Positions 6,419 through 20,083 of a stretch of DNA of 33,696 nt are shown here, piece by piece. Origin of the DNA: Kribbia dieselivorans NBRC 106261 (GTDB lineage: Bacteria > Actinomycetota > Actinomycetes > Actinomycetales > Dermatophilaceae). Under the pieces are notes generated by a model. That model did not search any database, was not told the origin of the DNA, and saw only the letters and a list, made by a program, of their open reading frames with translations. A program made the translations under genes and the position numbers. How positions within the stretch are numbered: position 1 is the stretch's first letter; every line of letters starts with the position of its first letter. The DNA lies in contig NZ_BCRE01000068.1 of the NCBI RefSeq assembly GCF_001552435.1, positions 1 through 33,696 on the forward strand, written 5' to 3'.

Positions 6419-7256
6419 ATGCGAACGGCGACCGTGGTGTCGGTCTCAGCCGCTTTGACAGCGATGATGGGTGGATCTCTGGCGCCAGTCGAAGCGCAGG
6501 AGGGTGATGTGGAGTCAGCTGTGGTCCAAGTTATCCTTGGTCGTTATGCGGCCATCAACGGCCAGCCGGACGCGAGGCTAACTGACTCCATAGCCAACAC
6601 GGGGGAGGAGATCGAGGTTCGGAATGAATTGAGGGACCAGTTTCAAGGGATTGGTCACTCTTATCGCGATGCGAGCGTCGAAGTGATGGATTCGGTTCCT
6701 GTCGCTGGGCGACCCGGGGCCTGGATCATGAGCATCAAAGTGCAAAGTACGCTGGAAGCGGTCGACGGCGTGCGCACGTCCATGGAAGTGTCTGAACGGC
6801 TGTAGGAATGGGCGTATAGGCGAAACGGCGAATTTCGTGTAATGGCAGGGGGTGATTGTACGAATTTCGTTTCCCAAGCGCTATCGGCGGGTGGCTGGGA
6901 GCCCAAGGCTGGATTTTATCGCAACACGACTGCGTGGTGGTATCGTCAGAATGGAGCACTTCCCGATACGTGGGCGCGGGCATGGTCTGGCTCCCAAAAC
7001 TTCTGGCACTTCAACAACAATACGGGGCGGGCTCCCCGTGTAGCGTCCTATAAGGACATGCTCGCGGGGATGTCCTTCAGATTGACTGCTCTGGTGACGG
7101 GACGGTCGATCATTCGGCAATCGTGGTGGAGAAGACCTCGTCAAACATGTATTTGCCCAGCATACAATTGATGATGCCCGACGTTCATACTTGTCCATGC
7201 GCGCAAAGTACCCCAATCCGAGGTGGCACAAATGGCACTACGTGTACGGATCCTGA
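6419..7256 (+). pseudogene. Broken secreted Amidase_6-type protein (one stop, two frameshifts)
   Basis: Three lesions split what reads as one exported protein. The first 128 codons begin with a signal peptide (cleavage near PVEA-QEG) and end at a TAG at 6803-6805. The same frame resumes at once with EWAYRRNGEFRVM and then GGDCTNFVSQALSAGGW, the hallmark of the putative amidase domain (Amidase_6), followed by TTAWWYRQN and SQNFWHF. A missing base near 7066-7070 moves the frame to AGDVLQIDCSGDGTVDHSAI, the expected second half with its Asp-His pair. Another missing base near 7154-7156 moves it to LAQHTIDDARRSYLSMRAKY and a stop at 7254-7256. The segment is more AT-rich than its neighbours and its codons differ, which suggests transfer followed by decay. 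Sequencing error at all three sites is possible but less likely. Confidence 0.75.
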
Positions 7257-9135: not shown

Positions 9136-10137
9136 TCAGCCGAAGCGGCCGTTGACGTAGTCGTACGTCCGCTCGTCCTGTGGGTTGCCGAACATCGTGT
9201 TCGTGTCACCGTGCTCGACGATGACGCCGGGGGTGCCCTGCGAGGCCAGGAAGAACGCACACTTGTCGGAGACGCGCGCGGCCTGCTGCATGTTGTGCGT
9301 CACGATGACGATGGTCACCTCGGAGGCGAGCTCGTGCATCGTGTCCTCGATGACGCGCGTCGACGTGGGGTCGAGCGCCGAACACGGCTCGTCCATGAGG
9401 AGGACGCGGGGCTTGATCGCCAGCGATCGGGCGATGCAGAGCCGCTGCTGCTGACCACCGGAGAGGCCACCCCCGGGAGCGTCGAGGCGGTCCTTGACCT
9501 CGTCCCAGAGTCCACCGCGCAGCAGGCAGTGCTCGACGAGATCGTCCTTCTCGGAGCGGGAGGCCTTGGTGCCGGTGAGCTTGAGGCCGGCCAGCACGTT
9601 GTCGCGGATGGACATGGCGGGGAAGGGGTTGGCCTTCTGGAACACCATGCCGATCTGGCGGCGGGCCTCGATGAGCTTCTTGTCGGGGGAGTAGATGTCC
9701 TCCCCGTCGAGGAGCACCTCACCAGACATCGCCGCGATCGGGACGAGTTCGTGCATGCGGTTGAGGATGCGCAGGAAGGTCGACTTGCCGCAGCCCGAGG
9801 GGCCGATCAGCGCGGTGATCTCACCGGCCTGCATGGTGAGGTTGACGCGGTCGAGGACCTTGCGCTTGCCGAACCAGGCCGAGACGTCGCGGCCCTCGAG
9901 GGTGGCGAGGTGGCCCTTCGGGGCCTGGGCACGCTCGATGCGCGGGTCAGCGGCGTTGGCGTCGCGAGCCTGGGAGACGACAGCGGGCACCTGCTCGGTG
10001 GCGTCGGGGTCATGGGTGGCCACCGGTGAGGTGGGCAGATCGGCCATGTCGTCGGCGTTGACCACCTGTGCGGCGATGGTCGACCCGTTGGCGGAGGCGT
10101 GTCGCGGCTGGAACACCTGCGTCTCGTCCGAGGTCAC
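9136..10137 (-). CDS. pstB: Phosphate ABC transporter ATP-binding protein PstB, with N-terminal extension
   Basis: PstB powers phosphate import through PstC-PstA. The ABC core starts near residue 76 and shows Walker [10 protein letters not shown] (112-120), the Q-loop [15 protein letters not shown], signature LSGGQQQRL (225-233), Walker B LLMDEP and [12 protein letters not shown], all typical of PstB. The product has 333 residues against about 250-260 for the family; the extra 75 are Ala/Asp/Thr-rich and probably disordered. The ATG at 10137 has AAGAG six bases upstream, which supports the long form. Unusually, pstB does not adjoin pstA: four genes separate them, and it follows a second pstS-like gene across a hairpin. 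The transglycosylase gene begins nine bases downstream. Confidence 0.95.
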
Positions 10138-10308: not shown

Positions 10309-11886
10309 TCAGCGAACGGTGACCTTGACGGTCTTGGAGGTGGCCTTCACCGTGCTGGTGCCCAGGTAGCGGTAGTTGATGTAGTACGTGCCCTTGGACG
10401 TGAAGCGCGGGATGGTGACGGTGGCCTTGCCGGACTTCAGGGTGCGGGTGGCGCCGACGTAGCGGTAGGAGCCCTTCGAGCCCTTCTTGACGCGGGCGCG
10501 GACCTTGCCGGTGGCGCTCTTGCCGTTGTCCGTGCGCTTGACCGTGACGGTGGCCTTCGGGGTCTGCTTGCGGGTCAGGGTGGTGTCGGCCTGACGAACG
10601 GTCATGCGGGCGGTGGTGTACACCTTGACCGAGGCGCTGCGCGAGGTGGAGCCCTTGTAGTCCTCGTTGGCGACGTAGCGCGCGGTGTAGGACTTGGTGC
10701 CCGGGGTGACCTTGGACAGCGTCGTGGTGGCGGTGCCACGCGCGACGGAGACGGTCTTGACGACCTTGGTGCCCTGGCGGAACTGGACCTGGCCGGTCGG
10801 GACGGCGTCGGAGCCGGCCTTGACGGTGGCGGTCAACTTGACCTTGTTGGCGCCGGCGGTGGCCGCCTTCAGCGTGGTCGTGGTGTTGGCCGCAACCTTG
10901 ACGGCCTCGGAGACCTTGAGGTTGGTGACGGCCGCGACGGTGGGCTGGCCGCAGGAGCCGCCGTTGGCCGGGGTGGCGAGCTGGTCGAGACCGCCCTTGG
11001 CGATGGCGTCACGCGCCGCCGGGGAGCAGAGGAAGCCGTCCGAGCCGAAGATGCCGGCGAACTTGGTGGTGTCAGCGAGGCTGCGGACCACGTTGTAGAC
11101 GGCGCGCTGCGCGCTCCAGTCACCGTTGCGCTTGATGCCGCCCGGGACCTCGGCGTTGGCGAGGCGGGCGCGCCCGGCCGAGAACGGGGAGATGACGTTC
11201 GGCTGGTTGCGGATCGGCGCGGGGTCGTGCTCCTGCGCCTCCTTGACGGTGCTGCCGTAGACGACCTTGGTGCCGCCGTTGAGCTTGGTCAGCTCGCCCT
11301 CGAAGAAGGAGCGCGTGCCCGAACCCGGCTGCGGGATGAGCGCGGTGATCGTGCCGGGCTTGCCGCCGGGGAACTCGCTCCAGTCGGTCTTCGCGCCCGA
11401 GTAGATGGCGACCAGGTCGGCGCCCGTGAGGCCCGCCGGGGCGTTGGTGGTGCTGGCGGTGAACAGTTCCAGGATGTCGGCCGCGAACGGGATCTGCTGA
11501 AGACCGGCGTTGGTCTCGTCGGCGTTTAGCGACGAGGACGAACGCGCGTAGTCGAAGGCGGTGTTGTTGCCCGCGCCGTAGAGGGTCTTCTTGCCGTCGC
11601 CGGAGCCGTTCGGGCGCTTGACCTCGGTAGCGCCGGCGCGCGGGATGATCATGGCCGGGACATCGCCAACCTGGGCGTCCCAGGAGACGAGGCGGCCTTC
11701 GGTCTTGCCGTCGTTGTACACGTCGGCGGCGGCCTGCATGGACAGCATGGTCGTGTCGGACCCGCTGCCGACGATGTCGGTGGAGTTCGGGAGGAAGTTG
11801 GGCTCGGCGTTGGCCGGGGTGGCGAGCGCCACGGCGCCCAGACCAACCGCGATGGCCGCGCCGGAGGCGACGAGCTTGCGAGACAT
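10309..11886 (-). CDS. Secreted PstS-like substrate-binding protein with C-terminal Ig-like domains
   Basis: The 525-residue product has a signal peptide with cleavage at about ANA-EP (residue 27). The domain from about 28 to 310 is a periplasmic-binding-protein fold of the PstS superfamily, seen in DIVGSGSDTTMLSMQ, YARSSSSLN and a central IPQPGSGTRSFFEGEL, the counterpart of the phosphate-gripping GSGT loop. Two beta-rich domains follow: one Ig-like (VPTGQVQFRQGTKVVKTVSV, about 325-415) and a Lys/Thr-rich one to the end. There is no lipobox or C-terminal membrane segment, so it may be free or bound to the wall by its basic tail. The ATG at 11886 follows AGGAG by seven bases; the in-frame ATG at 11928 lies upstream within a palindrome and is rejected. 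A PHO box lies about 85 bases upstream. Confidence 0.8.
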   Translation of the reverse strand: MSRKLVASGAAIAVGLGAVALATPANAEPNFLPNSTDIVGSGSDTTMLSMQAAADVYNDGKTEGRLVSWDAQVGDVPAMIIPRAGATEVKRPNGSGDGKKTLYGAGNNTAFDYARSSSSLNADETNAGLQQIPFAADILELFTASTTNAPAGLTGADLVAIYSGAKTDWSEFPGGKPGTITALIPQPGSGTRSFFEGELTKLNGGTKVVYGSTVKEAQEHDPAPIRNQPNVISPFSAGRARLANAEVPGGIKRNGDWSAQRAVYNVVRSLADTTKFAGIFGSDGFLCSPAARDAIAKGGLDQLATPANGGSCGQPTVAAVTNLKVSEAVKVAANTTTTLKAATAGANKVKLTATVKAGSDAVPTGQVQFRQGTKVVKTVSVARGTATTTLSKVTPGTKSYTARYVANEDYKGSTSRSASVKVYTTARMTVRQADTTLTRKQTPKATVTVKRTDNGKSATGKVRARVKKGSKGSYRYVGATRTLKSGKATVTIPRFTSKGTYYINYRYLGTSTVKATSKTVKVTVR

Positions 11887-11913: not shown

Positions 11914-11931
11914 CGTTTGGGATCCCAAACG
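11914..11931. promoter_or_regulatory. Perfect 18-bp palindrome upstream of the Ig-tailed pstS
   Basis: CGTTTGGGATCCCAAACG is a perfect palindrome ending 28 bases before the start codon, downstream of the PHO box. It may be an operator for an unknown repressor or a 5' leader hairpin. No second copy was noticed in the window. Confidence 0.55.
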
Positions 11932-11969: not shown

Positions 11970-12002
11970 ATCAGGTGAACTGCAGGTGACGAGCAGATGA
12001 CG
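11970..12002 (-). promoter_or_regulatory. PHO-box-like triple repeat for the Ig-tailed pstS
   Basis: On the minus strand three cores TCATCTG, TCACCTG and TCACCTG begin at 12000, 11989 and 11978, exactly 11 bases apart, the last within GTTCACCTGAT. This matches the 11-base direct-repeat units (GTTCACC plus four) bound by PhoP in Streptomyces. An AT-rich CAAAAT about eight bases further on is a possible -10. Confidence 0.7.
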
Positions 12003-12028: not shown

Positions 12029-12067
12029 CGCCCCCGGCGCCGCTGTGGACCAGCAACACCGGGGGCG
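12029..12067 (-). terminator. Hairpin ending the pstC-to-sortase-like operon
   Basis: CGCCCCCGG and CCGGGGGCG form a 9-bp stem (12029-12037 with 12059-12067), and the loop can form a small GCTG/CAGC stem. On the minus strand it is followed by ACTTTCGTTCT. It lies 24 bases after the stop of the sortase-like gene and before the PHO box of the next gene, so it probably separates the two transcripts. Confidence 0.6.
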
Positions 12068-12090: not shown

Positions 12091-13059
12091 CTACACCAGG
12101 TTGGGCAGCAGACGCACCAGCGTGTCGGTCGTCAACCAGGCCAGCAGCAGCGCCACCGGCGAGAGAACCACCCAGACCATGACGGTGTCGAAGCGGCGGG
12201 CGGCGATGACGATCACCGCCAGCAGACCGACCAGCAGCGCCAAGCACAGCGTCAGCAGCGGCAGCGCCCCCAGGTCACGACCCATCGCCTTCTCCGACTC
12301 GGGGACGAAGCTGACCCGTCCGCCGGGATCGGCGAAGACCTCTGACTTGCCCTTCCCCTTGGTGACGAGTTCGGCATCGACGTAGGCCGTGTCAGCCGGC
12401 GCCAACGCGGCCAGCCGCCCGGATCCCTCGGCGGTGACCAAGGTCAACCGAGCCTTCCCCTGCTCCAGCGGCTGGGGGAGGGGGTCGCCGGCGCGGCGCA
12501 CTCCCGAGACCTTGAACACGGCGTCACCGAGGGCGCTGGTCACCTCGATCCGGTCGCCCTTGGCCAGGGTCAAGGCCTTGCCGAACGGCGCTCCGTACGT
12601 GCTCGCCCGGCCGTACACCAACGAGACGCCCGGCTGGCCGGGCAGGGGAGTGTCGCGCCGGTGGCCTGGGGCGAGCATAGTCTCCGACGACGAGGAACCC
12701 TCGACGATGACCTGCTCGACCCCGATCGCCGGGATCTTCATCAGGGCCACGGCCGAGCCCGGCTCGATCTGTCCGCCGGTCGGAATCGTGGCCATGGCCA
12801 GCCCCTCCCGGAGGTCGGAGTAGAGCTCGTACTGGGCGCGGTTCTGGCTGATCGACCCCAGGAAGAGCATCTGGGCGAGCACCCACAACGTCACCAGCGC
12901 GATCATCAACGTTGCGCTGTTGAACGCCGTCAGACCGTCCCGGGGCGCGGGGGGAAGGGTGTCGTCATCGGCCGCGCTCGGCTGCACGATGGTTTCCTGC
13001 ACGGGGAGCGCCGGAGCCTTCTCCTCGTTCTCGTCCGGGCGGGTCAAGGTCGTCGTCAC
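12091..13059 (-). CDS. Membrane protein with sortase-like domain lacking the catalytic cysteine
   Basis: The 322-residue product has a cytoplasmic N-terminal tail, a membrane segment at about 48-70, an extracellular domain at about 95-235 and two C-terminal membrane segments (about 265-287 and 291-312). The extracellular domain reads as a sortase fold: APGHRRDTPLPGQPG with H133 in the position of the catalytic histidine, then LTLAKGDRIEV, VFKVSGVRR and LTLVTAEGSG. In sortases the last strand ends TLxTC; here codon 210 is GCC, alanine, so transpeptidation is not expected. R215 may match the conserved arginine. The GTG start overlaps the stop of the upstream PBP-like gene (GTGA), indicating translational coupling. 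Neither anchored neighbour carries an LPXTG signal. It may be a structural or ligand-binding partner of those proteins; the role is unknown. Confidence 0.7.
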   Translation of the reverse strand: MTTTLTRPDENEEKAPALPVQETIVQPSAADDDTLPPAPRDGLTAFNSATLMIALVTLWVLAQMLFLGSISQNRAQYELYSDLREGLAMATIPTGGQIEPGSAVALMKIPAIGVEQVIVEGSSSSETMLAPGHRRDTPLPGQPGVSLVYGRASTYGAPFGKALTLAKGDRIEVTSALGDAVFKVSGVRRAGDPLPQPLEQGKARLTLVTAEGSGRLAALAPADTAYVDAELVTKGKGKSEVFADPGGRVSFVPESEKAMGRDLGALPLLTLCLALLVGLLAVIVIAARRFDTVMVWVVLSPVALLLAWLTTDTLVRLLPNLV

Positions 13060-15875
13060 GACTGCCCCCCGAACCGGCGCAGGAGTTGACCGCCGCCGGC
13101 GAGCAGGGCGGCCGCCGGGCCGACGACGAGCAGCATCGGGACGAAGAACCGACCCAGCCAGGAGTTGACCTTGGCCGTCGGCGCCGTCTCCACCTTGCCG
13201 GAGGCGTTGGTCTTGGCCTCATTGGACGGAGCGTTCTTCTCGGTCCCGCCGGAGCCGTTCTCCGACGGTGTCGACCCACTTCCCCCGGCGTTGTTGGCCG
13301 AGCCGGATCCCCCACCGGGAACCTCTCCACCGGGGACGGTGTTGCCACCCGGGACCGTGTTTCCGCCGGGAACGGTGCCACCGCCGGGGTTGGAGCCACC
13401 CGGGGTCGTGCCGCCACCGCCGGGGTTGCCGCCTCCCGGGGTCGTGCCGCCCGTGTTGGACGTGGGTGCCTTCGCGCCCTTCTGGGCCTCGATCGCCGCG
13501 GCGGCGTCCTGGGCCGCCTTCCACAGCGGCGCGGTCGCTCCGGTCTTGGTCAGGGGCACGAAGCCCTCCGCGAGTTCGCCGTTGCCGGGACCCGGCTTCT
13601 GGCCTTCGCTCGTCGACACGCGGATGAACTCGGCGACCTTCTTCGCATCGGCCCTGTCCAGGCCAGTGGTCTTGGCCACCGTGTAGATGACCTGGGTGCC
13701 CGGGTAGGCGTCCTTGGCCTTGCGAACCTGCTCCTGGGTCCACGGGAAGGTGCCGAGGCGACCGTCGATCTTGGTGCCGAGCTTGACGGCGTTGAGCATG
13801 CCCTTCTCCGTCGGGCCGACGAAGGTGCGGCCGGCAGCCGACGTGAACTTGCCGGCCGGCTTCGCCGGGCCCGTCGTCTGGAGCGACGCCGTGCGCAGGC
13901 CGAACCGCTTGGCGTCGCCGAGGGCGGTCACACCCATGACGAAACGCGTCCCGACACCTTGTCGGTCGGTGCGTCCCAATTTCCACGGGTCGGTCGTGGT
14001 GGGCCGATCACACTTGGTGGCCGCCAAGGGCCAGCCGTCGAGCACGGCCTCGGCGATCTTGCGCATGTTCGTGACGGGCGCGGCGACGTTCGACAGGTAC
14101 GGGGAGGGGTTCTGCTGGAGGCACTCCTGCTGGGTCTCTGGGACCCAGGTGTCCAGCAGAGGCCATTCCGCGGTCGGCAGGGACATGCCCTTGTACGCCG
14201 GGTTGATGACCATGCCCCACGGGTCGGCCTTGCCCTCCATGAACGCCGTGGCCTCCGGGTCGGCCGCGATGTACTCGGTCAGGGCGCTGATCGTGTCCGA
14301 CGACTCCGACAGGGACATGAGGGTGGCCGCGGACTCGCGCGTGGTGGAGTCCAGGCCCGGGTTGAGTGCCCTGAACTCGGGATCCAGGTTGATCGACACC
14401 GGGTTTGTGCCGATGCCGGGGTGAGCGGTGCCCAGTCCGGACGCGGGGTAGGACGAGGTGAGCAACTTGGCGATCAGTCGCGCATTGAGCCGGAGGTTGG
14501 TGAACTCCCCGGTGTTGTGCGGCTTGTCGATCGCGTAGGCGATGGAGAACCCGGTGATGGCCGTCGGTGCGTAGGCCATCGGGGAGGTGGCGCCGGCCGC
14601 CGAGCGCTTGCGCGCCAGGAAGGCCGCCGGGGCCTCACCGTTGTCGACGAGGCGGTACGCGGCCGCGTCCGACATGCGGTTGTGCTGGAAGTTGAACCGC
14701 TTCTTGTTCAGGCAGTAGGCCGGGGTCCACTGGGTTGTGGTCTGGCCCATGAGTTCGGAACCGTAGAAGCCGGTGGGCGCCCGGGTGTCGAGCACGTCGC
14801 AGACGTCCGGCGGGAGACCGAAGCTCAGTGGCACGGAGAAGCGATTGCGCCAGTTCGACTCGGACCACCAGTACTTCGGTCCGACGGCCTGCTGGATGCC
14901 CTCGTTGTTGAAGTTGTTCGAGCCGGGTGCGAACCGACCCTGCTGCCGGCACTCGGTGCCGGCGGGGTCGTTGGAGTCGGTGCAGCTCAGCCCCATGATC
15001 GGGATGACGACCAGCGAGCACGCGGTGTTCTCGTTGCAGCCCAGCGACTCGTTCTCGACGTCGGTGCGGATCTCGAACTGCGCCTCGCCCTTGCCCGCGT
15101 CGGTCGTGAATCCATACTGCTCGGCCGGGGGGTAGGCCGAGTCGACCGCCGCCTCGGGGGGCATGCTCGTGGCATTGCAGGCCGCGAACTCCTTGCCCTT
15201 GGCGGACCGGAAGGGGGTCACGACACCGTTGTAGGTCGGGAGCTTCCAGTCCGGGCAGGTGACGTCCGCGCCGTTCTCCTTGCCGATGACCGGGAGTGCG
15301 GCGTTGGCCTTCCCACCCACGGTGTACTGGCTGTCGCGCAGCGACTTGGGAGCGTACAGGTCGTTGCGCCACACGGCGGTGCGATCGCCCTCGACCATCG
15401 ACCGCTGGATCCACGTCGAGGTCCAACAGGTCTCGGGGGAGAGACGCTTCTTGGGGTCCTTCGCGCCGTCGACGCCGCGACACTGCATGATGACGACCGG
15501 GTACTCCTGGGCCAGGCCGGAGGTGCCGAACGGGCTCGCGGCCCGGCCACCGCTGGGCGTGGCGCCGCTCCACGTCACCTGAACGCGCTCGCGACCGCGC
15601 AACTCCTTGGTCTTGTTGACCTTGACGGTGACATTGCGTGAGTCGACGACGTCGAGCTTGGTCCCGTTCTGGAACACGCGCTGGAGTTTCTTGGTCTTGG
15701 ACCACGCACCGCGATCAGCCGTCGTGCTCGTGGCCGCCTTGGGGGCGGCGACGACCGGGGCGGCCTGTGCCGCCGGGACGGTGTTTGGAATCACGGCCGG
15801 AGCTCCGACCACACCCCCCAACAGGAGGGCGACGCCGGCGATGGCCGCCGGCCGCGAAAGGACGAGGCGCTTCAT
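13056..15875 (-). CDS. Large secreted, membrane-anchored PBP/PstS-superfamily protein (939 aa)
   Basis: A signal peptide (about residues 1-39, ending AQAA) precedes a very large extracellular region and a single C-terminal membrane segment (about 907-930) ending LLRRFGGQS. The middle has a part that resembles a PstS-type binding fold: TAITGFSIAYAID, LRLNARLIAKLLTSSYP and INLDPEFRALNPG recall the PstS helix and IxxWNDPxIxxLNPG stretch. A second stretch, TFPWTQEQVRKAKDAYPG with VAEFIRV, may be a further lobe. Several cysteines in the first half suggest disulfides. A repetitive Gly/Pro linker (PGGGNPGGG and VPGGNT units, about 805-860) spans toward the membrane. It begins six bases after the membrane-anchored pstS and its stop overlaps the sortase-like gene. 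The ligand is unknown. Confidence 0.7.
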   Translation of the reverse strand: MKRLVLSRPAAIAGVALLLGGVVGAPAVIPNTVPAAQAAPVVAAPKAATSTTADRGAWSKTKKLQRVFQNGTKLDVVDSRNVTVKVNKTKELRGRERVQVTWSGATPSGGRAASPFGTSGLAQEYPVVIMQCRGVDGAKDPKKRLSPETCWTSTWIQRSMVEGDRTAVWRNDLYAPKSLRDSQYTVGGKANAALPVIGKENGADVTCPDWKLPTYNGVVTPFRSAKGKEFAACNATSMPPEAAVDSAYPPAEQYGFTTDAGKGEAQFEIRTDVENESLGCNENTACSLVVIPIMGLSCTDSNDPAGTECRQQGRFAPGSNNFNNEGIQQAVGPKYWWSESNWRNRFSVPLSFGLPPDVCDVLDTRAPTGFYGSELMGQTTTQWTPAYCLNKKRFNFQHNRMSDAAAYRLVDNGEAPAAFLARKRSAAGATSPMAYAPTAITGFSIAYAIDKPHNTGEFTNLRLNARLIAKLLTSSYPASGLGTAHPGIGTNPVSINLDPEFRALNPGLDSTTRESAATLMSLSESSDTISALTEYIAADPEATAFMEGKADPWGMVINPAYKGMSLPTAEWPLLDTWVPETQQECLQQNPSPYLSNVAAPVTNMRKIAEAVLDGWPLAATKCDRPTTTDPWKLGRTDRQGVGTRFVMGVTALGDAKRFGLRTASLQTTGPAKPAGKFTSAAGRTFVGPTEKGMLNAVKLGTKIDGRLGTFPWTQEQVRKAKDAYPGTQVIYTVAKTTGLDRADAKKVAEFIRVSTSEGQKPGPGNGELAEGFVPLTKTGATAPLWKAAQDAAAAIEAQKGAKAPTSNTGGTTPGGGNPGGGGTTPGGSNPGGGTVPGGNTVPGGNTVPGGEVPGGGSGSANNAGGSGSTPSENGSGGTEKNAPSNEAKTNASGKVETAPTAKVNSWLGRFFVPMLLVVGPAAALLAGGGQLLRRFGGQS
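13310..13450 (-). repeat. Low-complexity coding repeat (Gly/Pro linker)
   Basis: Short units coding PGGGN, PGGGT and VPGGNT repeat through this stretch of the 939-residue protein; a 15-base unit coding VPGGN is present in near-identical adjacent copies. Such repeats expand and contract easily, so linker length probably varies between strains. Confidence 0.7.
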
Positions 15876-15881
15876 GGTGGC

Positions 15882-17636
15882 TCAGGCCCCCTGACCGCGG
15901 CGGCGCATCCACACCACGACCGCACCGGGCAGCAGCACGATGGCAAGCAACTCGGCCACTGCCAGCCACGAGAAGACCTTGTCGTCCTTGGAACGGTTGG
16001 CCTGGAGCTCGGTGGGGACGCCGAACACCGGACCGGCAGCGCCGGCCTCGGTGCCGGCGGCGACGACCTGACCCGTCTCGGGGTCGACGGTCGTGCCACT
16101 ACCGGCCGCGTTGGAGTTGGCGGTGCCATTGCCGGTACCCGCACCCGTACCGGGCGCGTTGCCGCTGCCGGTCTTCGAGGTCCCACCGTTGGCCGTCGTG
16201 TTCGGGCCATTGCCGCCGCCGGAGTTGCCGCCGCCATTACCGCCTCCGCCGGAGTTGCCGCCGCCGTTGCCGCCGCTGCCATTGCCACCGCCGGAGTTGC
16301 CGCCACCGGAGTTGTTGGTCGTGCCACCGGAGTTCTTCGCCGCGGAAACGCTGGTCGGGGCTTGACCGGTGGCGCCGCCGCACGGGCCGGCACCGTTCTT
16401 GTCGCATGAGGCCGGCATGGGCGCGATCTGAGCGAGCTTGTTGTTGTTGATGTTGCGACCGTCGAACGTCGGGTTGTTGCACGACTTGACGTCACGGTTG
16501 GCCAACTCGACGCCACTGTCGGCGGTCTTGAGCTTCTTGATCTCGTCGAAGCCCGCCTGCACCAGGTTCAGCGGCAGCGGGGAGTAGCCGTAGCTGCCCG
16601 CCTTGGTCTGGCCGGCGCACAGCGAATAGAAGAGGAAGTCGGCCAGGGTCTGGCGCTTGGCCGTGCTCATGCGCTGGTCGCTCTTGCCCGTCGGGAGCAA
16701 CAGGTACGAGTACGACGAAAGTGGGTACGCCCGCTTGTCCGGGTTGGTGTACACCCCATCGAGGATCTGGGTCAGGTACGCCTGCGAGCCCTTGTTCTTG
16801 TTGATCTGGGCCTTGGTCAGGCCGACCGCGACGTTGTACTGGGTCGGCTCGACGTAGTAGCCCGACTTGTTCAGCACCTTGACGACCGGGTAGTCCTTGT
16901 TGACCGGGTAGGAGTACTCGACGTACCCGATCGTGCCGTTGCCCGAGGCCGCGGAGATCGTGTTCATGACCTGGTCGGAACCGGCCGCGGCGATCATGCG
17001 GCCCTTCTTCGGGTAGTACGACGTCAGGCCGGACTTGCCGAAGTACGGACGCCACACGCTGGGGTACTGCTTGTCCAGGTAGGTCGTGAACTGGGCCGTG
17101 GTACCCGAACCGTCCGAACGGACCACCGGGGTGATCGGCAGCTTGGGGAACTTGACGCCGTTGTTGTCCTTGGAGATCTGCGGGTCGGACCAGTCGGTGA
17201 TCTTGTTGGTGAAGATCTTCGCGATGGTGTCACCCGAGAGCCGCAGGTTGCGCACCTGCTGGTTGCCGATCTTCAGCTGGTACGTGAAGGCCGTGCCACC
17301 GGCGACGATCGGCAGGTAGGAGTACTGGCGGTTGCCGGCGGAGTCGACGTTGCCGAACTCGTCCTTGCCCTGGTAGGGGATCTCGGTGATGCCGAAGTCG
17401 GTGACGTTGTTCGCGAACGACTTGCGGCCCTGGGACGACCCACCACCGGAGTAGGACACCTTCATGCCCTTGGAGTCGACGTCGGAGATCCACTGTTGGA
17501 CGATGACCTCGGACCAGGTCGAGCCGTTGCCTTCGATGGCGGCATAGGTCACGCCGTAGGCGGGGAGCGCCGCGATGCTCCCGGCCAGGGCGGTGGCCGA
17601 CAGGGCGGCCACGGCGGTGATGAGTCGGCGGGTCAC
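15882..17636 (-). CDS. pstS: Phosphate-binding protein PstS, C-terminally membrane-anchored
   Basis: PstS binds phosphate outside the membrane and delivers it to PstC-PstA. The 584-residue product has a signal peptide (about 1-28), then a PBP domain to about residue 380 with IEGNGSTWSE, VSYSGGGSSQGRKSF, a DFGITEIPY segment, ITDWSDPQI and VVRSDGSGTTAQFTTYL, the phosphate-gripping loop. A Gly/Asn/Ser linker (about 440-500) leads to a C-terminal membrane segment (WLAVAELLAIVLLPGAVVVW) with a basic MRRRGQG stop. There is no lipobox: anchoring is by the tail rather than by lipid, unlike most Gram-positive PstS. There is no LPXTG motif. The GTG start overlaps the pstA stop (GTGA), so the genes are translationally coupled. 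Usual PstS proteins have about 370 residues; the surplus is linker and anchor. Confidence 0.9.
   Translation of the reverse strand: MTRRLITAVAALSATALAGSIAALPAYGVTYAAIEGNGSTWSEVIVQQWISDVDSKGMKVSYSGGGSSQGRKSFANNVTDFGITEIPYQGKDEFGNVDSAGNRQYSYLPIVAGGTAFTYQLKIGNQQVRNLRLSGDTIAKIFTNKITDWSDPQISKDNNGVKFPKLPITPVVRSDGSGTTAQFTTYLDKQYPSVWRPYFGKSGLTSYYPKKGRMIAAAGSDQVMNTISAASGNGTIGYVEYSYPVNKDYPVVKVLNKSGYYVEPTQYNVAVGLTKAQINKNKGSQAYLTQILDGVYTNPDKRAYPLSSYSYLLLPTGKSDQRMSTAKRQTLADFLFYSLCAGQTKAGSYGYSPLPLNLVQAGFDEIKKLKTADSGVELANRDVKSCNNPTFDGRNINNNKLAQIAPMPASCDKNGAGPCGGATGQAPTSVSAAKNSGGTTNNSGGGNSGGGNGSGGNGGGNSGGGGNGGGNSGGGNGPNTTANGGTSKTGSGNAPGTGAGTGNGTANSNAAGSGTTVDPETGQVVAAGTEAGAAGPVFGVPTELQANRSKDDKVFSWLAVAELLAIVLLPGAVVVWMRRRGQGA
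16195..16315 (-). repeat. Low-complexity coding repeat (Gly/Asn/Ser linker of PstS)
   Basis: GGN and SGGGN codons repeat in this part of the PstS gene, coding a flexible spacer between the binding domain and the membrane anchor. Length variation by slippage is likely. Confidence 0.7.
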
Positions 17637-18922
17637 TTGATGCCTCCGGTGGGTCGGACGTTCGTGGCGTCGTTCGGGTACGGGGAGTCGGCGATCTCCA
17701 CCAGGACGGGTTCGCCCGAGGGGAGTTCGGCCGCAGGTTGCGGGGTCGTCTGGCGAGGAGCGCGGATCGTCCGCGACTTGTCTCGCCGCGGTCGGGCGAG
17801 GAGTCGGGCGCCGGTGAAGAGCAGCAGGACGAGCGTCATGAGGATGGCCGCTGCGCCGAAGCCGCGGACCTCATAGATCGGCTCGCCCGAGCGCACGGTC
17901 GAGAAGATGAACAGGGGCAGCGAGGTCATGACACCGTCGAACGGGTTGAGCTTCAGCGACGAGGTCACACCCGAGGTGAGCAGCAGCGGCGAGGTCTCGC
18001 CGACACCGCGGGCGACACCGAGGATGACCGCGGTGGCCAGACCCGGCCGCGCGGTCGGCAGCACGACGTGCCAGACCGTCTTCCACCGCGAAGCGCCCAG
18101 GGCCAGGCTGGCCTCGCGCAGGGAGCCCGGCACGACGCGGAGCACGACATCCGCAGCGCGCGCGATGATGGGCAGCATCATCACGCCGATGGCCAGAGCG
18201 GCCGCGGCGCCGGACTTGGGCAGGATCCCGGTGAGGATCACCGTGGTGTAGATGAACAGACCGGCCACGATCGACGGGAGCGCGGTCATCGACTCGACGA
18301 CCGTGCGCACGACCTTCGCGTACGGTCCTCCGACCTCGGTCATGAACACGGCCGTGCCGATGCCCAGGGGCACGACGATCGCGATGGCGATGAACACCTC
18401 GATGAGCGAGCCGACGATGGCGTGGAGCACACCACCCTTGTCGAGCGAATCCTTCGGTCCGATCCCCGACATGTCCTGGGTGTAGATGTTCACGTGGAGC
18501 AGCGCCTCGAAGCCACGGTAGAACGTGAAGATCACGGCCGAGGCCAGGGCGACGAAGACGATGAGCGCCCCCGCGGGCACGAGGACGTTCATCACCCGGT
18601 CCTGGACCTCGGTGATGCCACCGCGCAGGCCTCCGACGACGGCGGTCAGCGCGAGGATGCACACGAGCGAGACGAGGAGGTAGCCGACGAGGCCGTTCCA
18701 GGGGAGCAGGCGGTAGCAGATCAGCCAGGCCAACGCGAAGCCGCCGATGATCGGTCCGAAGCGGCTGAACAACTCCTCGTCGGTGGCCTGGGACAGCGCG
18801 CGCTGCGGCGGGGCCGGTGTGGTTGGCGGGTCGAGCAACGGCAGCTCGGTGATCCCGGAGCCGAACGTCGGACGTTGCGGCTCGACGGTCGCGGTCGTGG
18901 GCCGCTCGAGGGTCGTGGTCAT
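17633..18922 (-). CDS. pstA: Phosphate ABC transporter permease PstA
   Basis: PstA is one of the two membrane subunits of the phosphate importer. The 429-residue product has a Pro/Thr-rich cytoplasmic tail (about 1-50), two N-terminal hydrophobic segments (about 57-100), then the standard six-segment permease core with TALPSIVAGLFIYT and the coupling EAA-type loop SLREASLALGASRWKTVWHVVLP near the middle. FIFSTVRSGEPIYEVRGFGAA and a further membrane segment follow, with a 50-residue hydrophilic C-terminal tail. Both tails and the two extra leading segments make it about 130 residues longer than the common form. The ATG at 18922 lies one base after the pstC stop, and its own stop overlaps the GTG of pstS. 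Confidence 0.95.
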   Translation of the reverse strand: MTTTLERPTTATVEPQRPTFGSGITELPLLDPPTTPAPPQRALSQATDEELFSRFGPIIGGFALAWLICYRLLPWNGLVGYLLVSLVCILALTAVVGGLRGGITEVQDRVMNVLVPAGALIVFVALASAVIFTFYRGFEALLHVNIYTQDMSGIGPKDSLDKGGVLHAIVGSLIEVFIAIAIVVPLGIGTAVFMTEVGGPYAKVVRTVVESMTALPSIVAGLFIYTTVILTGILPKSGAAAALAIGVMMLPIIARAADVVLRVVPGSLREASLALGASRWKTVWHVVLPTARPGLATAVILGVARGVGETSPLLLTSGVTSSLKLNPFDGVMTSLPLFIFSTVRSGEPIYEVRGFGAAAILMTLVLLLFTGARLLARPRRDKSRTIRAPRQTTPQPAAELPSGEPVLVEIADSPYPNDATNVRPTGGIK

Positions 18923-18923
18923 G

Positions 18924-19934
18924 TCAGGCCTCCGCGTCGGCGCCGGACCGGCTGCGCGAGACGACGATCGCGGCCAGCGTGTTGACGATCAGGGTGAGCA
19001 CGAACAGCACCAGACCTGCCGTGAGGAGCGCGGACATCTGGGCGCCCGTCGCGGTGCCGAACTTGTTGGCGATGAGGGCGGAGATGTTGTTCGTGCCGGT
19101 TTCGAGGATGCGCCACTTGAGCTCCTCGGCCTGGCTGATGATGAGCAGCACGGCGATGGTCTCACCGAGCGCGCGACCGAGGCCGAGCATCGTGCCACCG
19201 ATCATGCCGCCGCGACCGAAGGGCAGCACGACGGACTGGACCATGCCCCAGCGCGTCGCGCCGAGGGCCAACGCAGCCTCGCGCTCGCCGGGCGGGGACT
19301 GGCTGAAGACCTCGCGCATGACCGAGGCGATCATCGGCAGCACCATCATCGCGACGGCGATCCCGGCGCAGAAGGCCGACTGGATGTAGCGGGTCTGGTC
19401 GACGAAGGCGGAGTTCGGATCGGTCTGCACGTCGAAGATCGGCAGCCATCCCATCCACCGGTGCAGCCAGCGGGCGACGTCGCCGGCGTAGGGCATGACA
19501 AGGAAGAAGCCCCACAGGCCGTAGATGATCGAGGGCACGGCCGACATGAGGTCGACCGCCGAGATCAGGGTCGGCTTGAGGTTCGGGGGAGCGTAGTCGC
19601 TGATGTAGAGAGCGGTGAGGAACGCCAGCGGCACCGCCAGGGCGAGCGCGACGAAGGCGATCGACACCGTGCCGCCGAGCACGGCCGCGATCCCGACGAC
19701 GTTCTGCTCCGGGTTCCACTGCGTCTCGGTGAAGAAGCTCCAGCCGTAGTACCGCAGCGTGGGGATCGAGTTGCCCAAAAGGAACAGGCCGATGCCACCG
19801 GTGATGAGGAGCACGATCGTGCCGATGGTGGTGGCCGAGATCTCGAACACCTTGTCCACCCCGGTCATGCCCTTCTTGAGGGTGCGCGGGGTGTCTTCCA
19901 CCCCCTCGGGGCGGGTGGGGAGATACGTCGTCAC
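18924..19934 (-). CDS. pstC: Phosphate ABC transporter permease PstC
   Basis: PstC pairs with PstA to form the phosphate channel. The 336-residue product has about six membrane segments, the conserved YYGWSFFTETQWNPEQN extracellular stretch after the first, LMSAVPSIIYGLWGFF, and the cytoplasmic coupling loop PPGEREAALALGATRWGMVQ followed by LGRALGETIAVLLI. The start is a GTG at 19934, with GAGG ten bases upstream; an ATG at 19950 is in another frame. It is the first gene of the minus-strand pst operon, about 105 bases downstream of a PHO box. Length and motifs are normal. Confidence 0.96.
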   Translation of the reverse strand: MTTYLPTRPEGVEDTPRTLKKGMTGVDKVFEISATTIGTIVLLITGGIGLFLLGNSIPTLRYYGWSFFTETQWNPEQNVVGIAAVLGGTVSIAFVALALAVPLAFLTALYISDYAPPNLKPTLISAVDLMSAVPSIIYGLWGFFLVMPYAGDVARWLHRWMGWLPIFDVQTDPNSAFVDQTRYIQSAFCAGIAVAMMVLPMIASVMREVFSQSPPGEREAALALGATRWGMVQSVVLPFGRGGMIGGTMLGLGRALGETIAVLLIISQAEELKWRILETGTNNISALIANKFGTATGAQMSALLTAGLVLFVLTLIVNTLAAIVVSRSRSGADAEA

Positions 19935-20039: not shown

Positions 20040-20083
20040 CGTGAATGAATGGTGAACGGGAGAGGATCATTTGGTGAACATGA
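20040..20083 (-). promoter_or_regulatory. PHO-box-like repeats for the pstC operon
   Basis: On the minus strand GTTCACC occurs at 20079-20073 and 20057-20051, 22 bases apart, with a degenerate unit between and ATTCACG at 20046-20040, so four 11-base units lie in register. This is the arrangement bound by phosphorylated PhoP in actinobacteria and implies induction by phosphate starvation. Confidence 0.75.

Follow-up and report, generated by a model that had tools for sequence, protein, structure and literature searches.

The window, the whole stretch of 33,696 nucleotides from Kribbia dieselivorans NBRC 106261 (contig NZ_BCRE01000068.1) that was analyzed, encodes a Pst-type operon on its reverse strand. 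The permease genes pstC (18924..19934; TIGR02138, 252 bits) and pstA (17633..18922; TIGR00974, 202.8 bits) score above the cut-offs of their models, and the ATPase gene pstB (9136..10137) falls slightly below its own (TIGR00972, 338.1 versus 343.2 bits). Homologues of PstC, PstA, and PstB of the PstSCAB importer are all present. The same strand encodes PSTS1 (15882..17636), a PstS family protein with a long linker and a C-terminal membrane segment, in which a lipobox was not found. W939 (13056..15875), recognized as an open reading frame and by profile, is a 939-aa protein with a degenerate PstS-like core with insertions, a low-complexity linker, and a C-terminal membrane segment. PSTSIG (10309..11886) joins a PstS-like region to Big_3_5 Ig-like repeats and has no C-terminal membrane segment. 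For its start we chose the ATG at 11886, which follows AGGAG; the automatic listing gives a TTG at 11928.

Also in this operon, at 12091..13059 on the reverse strand, is a gene for a 322-aa protein that we call the pseudosortase, based on its translation, Pfam, hydropathy, and fold comparison. Its GTG start codon overlaps the TGA stop of W939 (GTGA). An initial annotation, made from the sequence alone, had placed the gene inside the pst operon and described it as translationally coupled to anchored PBP-like proteins; the surrounding pst gene set and the start/stop overlap with W939 bear this out. A terminator-like hairpin of 17 pairs (12029..12067, reverse strand) lies directly 3' of the pseudosortase stop, in a region where the number of such hairpins (six, versus a shuffle mean of 5.0) is at chance level.

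The same genome (G000) also carries an ordinary pst set (L184:1-5297), with genes labeled pstC, pstA, and pstB and a lipobox PstS, so the operon in the window is a second Pst-type system. A second PstS-like open reading frame is present in L184:1-5297, its start cut by the edge of the stretch. At 6419-7171 of the window, two short adjacent open reading frames in different frames resemble pieces of one secreted protein and may be interrupted; they contain a GGDCTNFVSQ motif, which we take to be amidase-like.

Sortase domain and catalytic residues

Hydropathy places membrane segments at residues 49-67, 268-286, and 297-315 of the pseudosortase, the three that the initial annotation had described. 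The protein consists of an N-terminal membrane segment, a sortase domain at approximately residues 95-240, the two further membrane segments, and a C-terminal LLPNLV. Pfam Sortase (PF04203) matches residues 107-209 with an E value of 2.4e-11 (43.9 bits versus a cut-off of 26.6). The best NCBIfam model is that for class E sortases, at 47.4 bits, well below its cut-off of 160 bits; with the same model the intact sortase of L153 scores just 141.6 bits and L244 scores 120.7. A profile of five family members matched 37 PDB sequences at an E value of ≤0.01 (best sortase, 1.5e-18), 35 of them named sortase or sortase-like. The two exceptions by name are an "LPXTG-site transpeptidase family protein" and a "putative secreted protein" (5go6) that is elsewhere titled sortase E.

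An AlphaFold model of the protein was built from three sequences (window, L032, and L033). Its mean pLDDT of 51.8 is low, and given this value and the three-sequence input we do not trust its details. Every one of the 50 matches that Foldseek listed for this model is a sortase (best E value, 1.6e-8), and the same is true of the 50 listed by VIA-align, which cover approximately residues 95-240, with Z scores of 12.9 for the class A sortase 7f87, 12.5 for SrtE (5go5), and 12.1 for SrtE1 (5cuw). The superposition on known sortases that the initial annotation had called for thus returned sortases, class E enzymes included, from a low-confidence model, and the result that would have refuted the proposal, a structure without the sortase beta-barrel, was not encountered. 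Overall, the Pfam match, together with the fold matches of the low-confidence model, supports the earlier assignment of a sortase domain with a beta-barrel fold.

To compare the catalytic columns, we aligned 83 distinct family members with 28 ordinary class E-type sortases. The His, Cys, and Arg are all kept in 28/28 of the ordinary enzymes, and in 12/12 further ones (40/40 in total). In the window protein, the His column holds Arg151 (codon CGG, 12607..12609, reverse strand), the Cys column holds Ala210 (codon GCC, 12430..12432, reverse strand), and the Arg column holds a residue other than Arg, so the entire triad is missing. Replacement of the catalytic cysteine by Ala210, with GCC at 12432-12430, had been read correctly from the sequence. 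The proposal that His133 (codon CAC, 12661..12663, reverse strand) is the catalytic His is rejected by the alignment: it belongs to the first GH motif and is non-catalytic. Its column is conserved (28/28 ordinary sortases and 80/83 family members). At position 210, Ala is the commonest residue (59/83).

Across the 83 family members, the Cys column contains A 59, S 14, G 8, V 1, and T 1, with no Cys; the His column contains Arg 78, Lys 4, and one gap, with His in 0/82 residues; and the Arg column contains V 41, A 16, T 10, I 7, L 5, S 2, E 1, and one gap, with Arg in 0/82. Five members from outside the class (L240-L244) have no Cys, no His, and a single Arg, in L244, which looks like an intermediate because it keeps the catalytic Arg and has lost His and Cys. 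In all 88 homologues taken together the Arg is kept once and His not at all: position 151 holds Arg (82) or Lys (5) in 87/87 sequences with a residue there. The commonest residues at position 210 are A (61), S (15), and G (8). Cys is kept in 0/88, so the situation that would have spoken against the original proposal, homologues that mostly keep the cysteine, was not encountered. The losses of Cys and His recur in every homologue compared, which argues against chance. Sequence comparison establishes the sortase assignment, the loss of the triad, and the conserved Arg/Lys at the His position; with the fold comparison, it supports the suggestion of a non-enzymatic sortase fold, and the family has very probably lost sortase catalysis.

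Several other positions are conserved in the family, namely Q76 (87/87), R84 (83/87), R188 (81/87), and D228 (79/86). In SrtE1 of Streptomyces coelicolor, the triad is His251, Cys320, and Arg329, and a Tyr in the beta3/beta4 loop has been proposed to read the Ala of LAXTG, according to the available text of PMC5148588. We infer that the column after the first GH may correspond to this Tyr. It contains Tyr in 18/25 ordinary sortases, versus 0/32 family members, 18/32 of which have Arg.

Distribution, gene neighborhood, and selection

The pseudosortase family reaches many families of the phylum. With the five-sequence profile, 30 of 396 genomes in the order sample score ≥223 bits over almost the whole profile (next best, 112 bits). 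A threshold of ≥136 bits, which takes in fragments and divergent members, is reached by 52 of 394 genomes in the class sample (next best, 116). The phylum sample has matches in at least 8 of 246 genomes, at least 5 of them outside the class (among the matches listed, E value of 1e-33 or better); here L245, L246, and L247 (121-133 bits) were read as ordinary sortases, and G870 and G929 were left out. No relatives were found in viral contigs. Within the window's own family, with one genome for each of 36 genera, only G000 and, in a divergent form, G025 have the protein at the search sensitivity used.

In a tree of 57 sequences, with the three catalytic columns removed, 31/32 family members group together with support of 95/64 (not a starred branch), and L244 lies beside ordinary sortases. 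The tree of these sequences neither shows nor rules out a single origin of the family. In this tree, the closest neighbor of the window protein comes from a Nocardioides metagenome-assembled genome (support, 98/85). This placement, together with the rarity of the pseudosortase in the window's own family, suggests that the operon may have been acquired by transfer.

Neighborhoods were labeled by profiles for 64 members (of the class, or located on named contigs) and for 5 from outside the class. The labeled genes are pstC, pstA, PSTS1, W939, pseudosortase, PSTSIG, and pstB, in varying order. At least one pst-system gene lies on the same strand in 62/64 loci, and pstA, pstB, or pstC does so in 54/64; in the two loci without one (L128 and L151) the gene is at a contig end. 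Outside the class, a same-strand pst-system gene is present in 5/5. The control set, 11 loci centered on ordinary sortases (L153 and L215-L224), contains none of PSTA, PSTC, PSTS1, W939, or PSTSIG. Weak ABC ATPase matches (126-139 bits) occur in 3/11 of them, versus mostly >420 bits for pstB of the pst operons.

One control locus (L153:6756-14427) encodes a class E-like sortase that is intact and has C-terminal hydrophobic segments; beside it are an ABC ATPase, a permease, and several anchored-looking proteins, one of which ends in ELPNTG plus a membrane segment. Judged from its genes, this may be a transport operon equipped with an active sortase of its own.

Among the 394 class genomes, 52 have the pseudosortase (136-bit cut-off), 53 have W939, and 49 have both (p 6e-54, computed as if genomes were independent, which is not the case). 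Contig ends accompany all four cases of W939 without the pseudosortase. The G632 contig ends within the pseudosortase gene (model positions 3-50 are present), that of G739 ends approximately 330 bases beyond W939, and those of G485 and G487 end downstream before any pstB or pseudosortase, so that in the last two the missing piece may lie beyond the end. Of the three genomes with the pseudosortase and no W939, G550 has a divergent form, and in G435 and G478 the gene is on a contig of approximately 3.5 kb. The earlier idea that the protein is a partner of W939 and of the anchored PstS is supported by gene order in the operon, translational coupling, and co-occurrence; operon membership and the co-occurrence with W939 are established at the level of sequence.

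Purifying selection on the gene is indicated by dN/dS values of 0.05-0.45 in 9/9 hand-chosen pairs of close relatives. Reading frames are uninterrupted in nearly all strong matches, the exception being G517, where the match spans two stops.

The consensus of the PHO box is TTCACC. A pattern search of the window identified PHO-box-like 11-nt direct repeats on the reverse strand upstream of pstC (20040..20056) and of PSTSIG (11974..11990). In the window alone, the pattern is not above chance (3 found versus 1.66 expected). Across loci, it occurs 8 times upstream of pst-system genes and 7 times elsewhere (odds ratio 7.0, p 4e-4), a count of 8 that includes the two sites of the window from which the pattern was taken. 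When the window is left out, 6 sites remain versus 7 elsewhere, in 5/63 loci (odds ratio 5.1, p 0.006), and this fall in enrichment weakens the argument, on which our estimate for docking (see below) does not depend. The available text of PMC7866108 describes 11-nt direct repeats upstream of pstS as binding sites of PhoP. Given the enrichment across loci, phosphate control is a plausible reading for close relatives, and for most it is unproven.

Membrane-tethered partner proteins

PSTS1 belongs to the PstS family, with PF12849 at an E value of 3.2e-42 and PstS structures at 1.8e-28 or weaker; its TIGR00975 score of 191.1 is below the cut-off of 205. The last Asp of the PstS motif DFGASD is a phosphate ligand. 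PSTS1 keeps the RSDGSGTT loop, and Glu replaces the last Asp of the DFGASD found in solved PstS proteins. This Glu is almost invariant among ten PSTS1 sequences.

By hhalign (probability 97.5, E value of 8.7e-12) and by profile match to the PstS structure 1pc3 (8.8e-11), W939 is a distant, degenerate relative of PstS. It seems to be without the RSDGSGTT loop in the profile alignment. The W939 protein of the window has no match in a Pfam search; 3 of 17 W939 members match PBP_like_2 weakly (best E value, 0.0035). A structure prediction from three sequences was useless (mean pLDDT, 32.7). In our reading of its N-terminus, W939 has a predicted signal peptide and is probably secreted.

A C-terminal hydrophobic or membrane segment is present in 44/45 PSTS1, 46/49 W939, and 0/49 PSTSIG proteins, where the 45 PSTS1 include the opposite-strand PstS of L035 and L148. 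An LPXTG-like motif is absent from the last 75 residues of both PSTS1 and W939 of the window, consistent with the anchored PBP-like proteins without LPXTG of the initial annotation; across loci, a loose version occurs in this region of 2/45 PSTS1 and 1/49 W939 proteins. PSTS1 of the window thus has neither the lipobox of a lipoprotein nor, like W939, a sorting signal for a sortase. To compare ordinary PstS proteins, 58 relatives were searched with PSTS1, and 30 match at an E value of 1e-20 or better. Among these, the ordinary PstS of 27 relatives that are free of the system has a lipobox in 27/27 and a C-terminal membrane segment in 0/27. In one small genome (L226:3827-7475), genes past PSTSIG encode more secreted or anchored-looking proteins.

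Possible functions and relation to known systems

Gene context gives an even chance, in our estimate, that the pseudosortase is embedded in the membrane as a non-enzymatic subunit on which tethered binding proteins dock. The protein is conserved although its catalytic residues are lost, which makes holding or docking rather than cutting probable. Specifically, a sortase domain of class E descent, flanked by membrane segments, has lost its triad and would have been kept as an accessory of a second, specialized Pst-type importer. PSTS1 and W939 would be held by C-terminal membrane segments and not by a lipid or sorting signal. On the outer membrane face, the old sorting-signal groove of the pseudosortase, or another of its surfaces, would bind W939 and PSTS1 at the juxtamembrane linker or body, uncleaved, and so keep them docked near PstC/PstA. 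Docking would be the simplest use of the groove, since the chemistry is gone and the neighbors keep a linker, membrane segment, and basic tail without the motif. Operon expression may be phosphate-controlled. The scaffold or ligand-delivery partner for phosphate capture that had been suggested from the sequence may be of this kind. A stronger version appears somewhat doubtful: that a widespread and so far undescribed type of Pst importer requires the pseudosortase as a subunit, and that its tethered binding proteins dock on this dead sortase, whose site was rebuilt around Arg/Lys and recognizes partners or an anion.

Several observations count against docking. Gene order varies across loci, and three divergent loci (L035, L148, and L243) have their canonical pst genes on the strand opposite the pseudosortase. 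The tree places L244, which retains the catalytic Arg, beside ordinary sortases. The sole W939 tail motif, LPVTG in L124, and the PSTS1-like protein of G056 (L155), which is without a C-terminal membrane segment, also do not fit it.

Other functions would also account for part of the evidence. The old active site, with its Arg/Lys, could bind a small anion such as phosphate or a phosphorylated wall polymer, making the protein a sensor or hand-over subunit and not a protein dock. Arg/Lys at position 151 in 87/87 sequences and mostly A, S, or G at 210 would suit such a pocket, as would the pst gene context and the PHO-box-like repeats at both promoters. However, the Arg at the His position could have a structural role, and the pocket model is of low confidence; we regard anion binding as unlikely. 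A new catalytic activity via other residues, to which the conserved Q76, R84, R188, and D228 might point, is improbable: the old site has no nucleophilic Cys (A, S, G, V, or T instead), and a hydroxyl is available only in the Ser/Thr members.

The pseudosortase might instead act on a separate, active sortase of the cell, as a regulator or helper that, for instance, occupies sorting signals. In a PF04203 search of the 66 carrier genomes, 63 have two or more matches, which would allow for this, although some of these matches are second pseudosortases. In G000, G663, and G712, drafts that are 95-98% complete and of which the last two are of one genus, the single match is the pseudosortase itself, and the genetic link is to pst genes. 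We consider such a role very improbable, and reject it for G000, where only the window protein is found in a 96.8% complete draft. Finally, loss of the triad could mark a decaying sortase gene without function. The dN/dS range in all nine pairs led us to reject pseudogene decay, which the largely uninterrupted frames, wide distribution, and fixed neighborhood leave with almost no credence.

If docking is correct, this would be a conserved family of sortase pseudoenzymes in which the whole triad was lost and that is tied to nutrient uptake and not to wall anchoring. It would help to account for the arrangement, around an ABC importer, of membrane-tethered binding proteins that have no sorting signals. 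The name "sortase," given to these genes from a Pfam match alone, may mislead. We found no published description of such a protein in the titles and abstracts of the open-licence PubMed Central literature, and in the available text of a review of Streptomyces phosphate transport (PMC7866108) the word sortase occurs 0 times.

Among known enzymes, class E sortases such as SrtE1 of S. coelicolor (PDB 5cuw; available text of PMC5148588) share the sortase domain, N-terminal membrane helix, and motifs with the pseudosortase. Unlike them, it is without the catalytic His, Cys, and Arg, is located in a pst operon, and carries two additional membrane segments C-terminal to the domain, with a conserved LPN at its end. 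Intact sortases from L245, L247, and L153 also combine the sortase domain with C-terminal hydrophobic segments, and the LP-N-type C-terminus of the pseudosortase is comparable to the ends of L245 (LPGNY) and L247 (LPPNL). These three differ in their intact His, Cys, and Arg, and the pst labels nearby are limited to weak ATPase matches. L245:8031-8915 and L247:6200-7570 are from outside the class, and because these intact enzymes have the pseudosortase-like C-terminal architecture, it may predate the catalytic loss.

For the tethered binding proteins, a parallel is the znu cluster of Corynebacterium diphtheriae, an ABC importer whose accessory binding proteins have a C-terminal membrane segment and charged tail, with the sortase motif absent; none of the six known sortases of this species is needed for ZnuF to reach the wall (available text of PMC12445094). 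As in the window, the importer's binding proteins have membrane-segment tails and no sorting motif; the cluster differs in handling zinc and not phosphate, and a pseudosortase is unmentioned in the available text of that paper. The PstSCAB importer itself shares pstC, pstA, pstB, and a PstS homologue with the system of the window. Unlike PstSCAB, the window system has a PstS with a C-terminal membrane segment in place of the lipobox, and it adds a degenerate PstS-like protein, a secreted PstS-like protein, and the pseudosortase.
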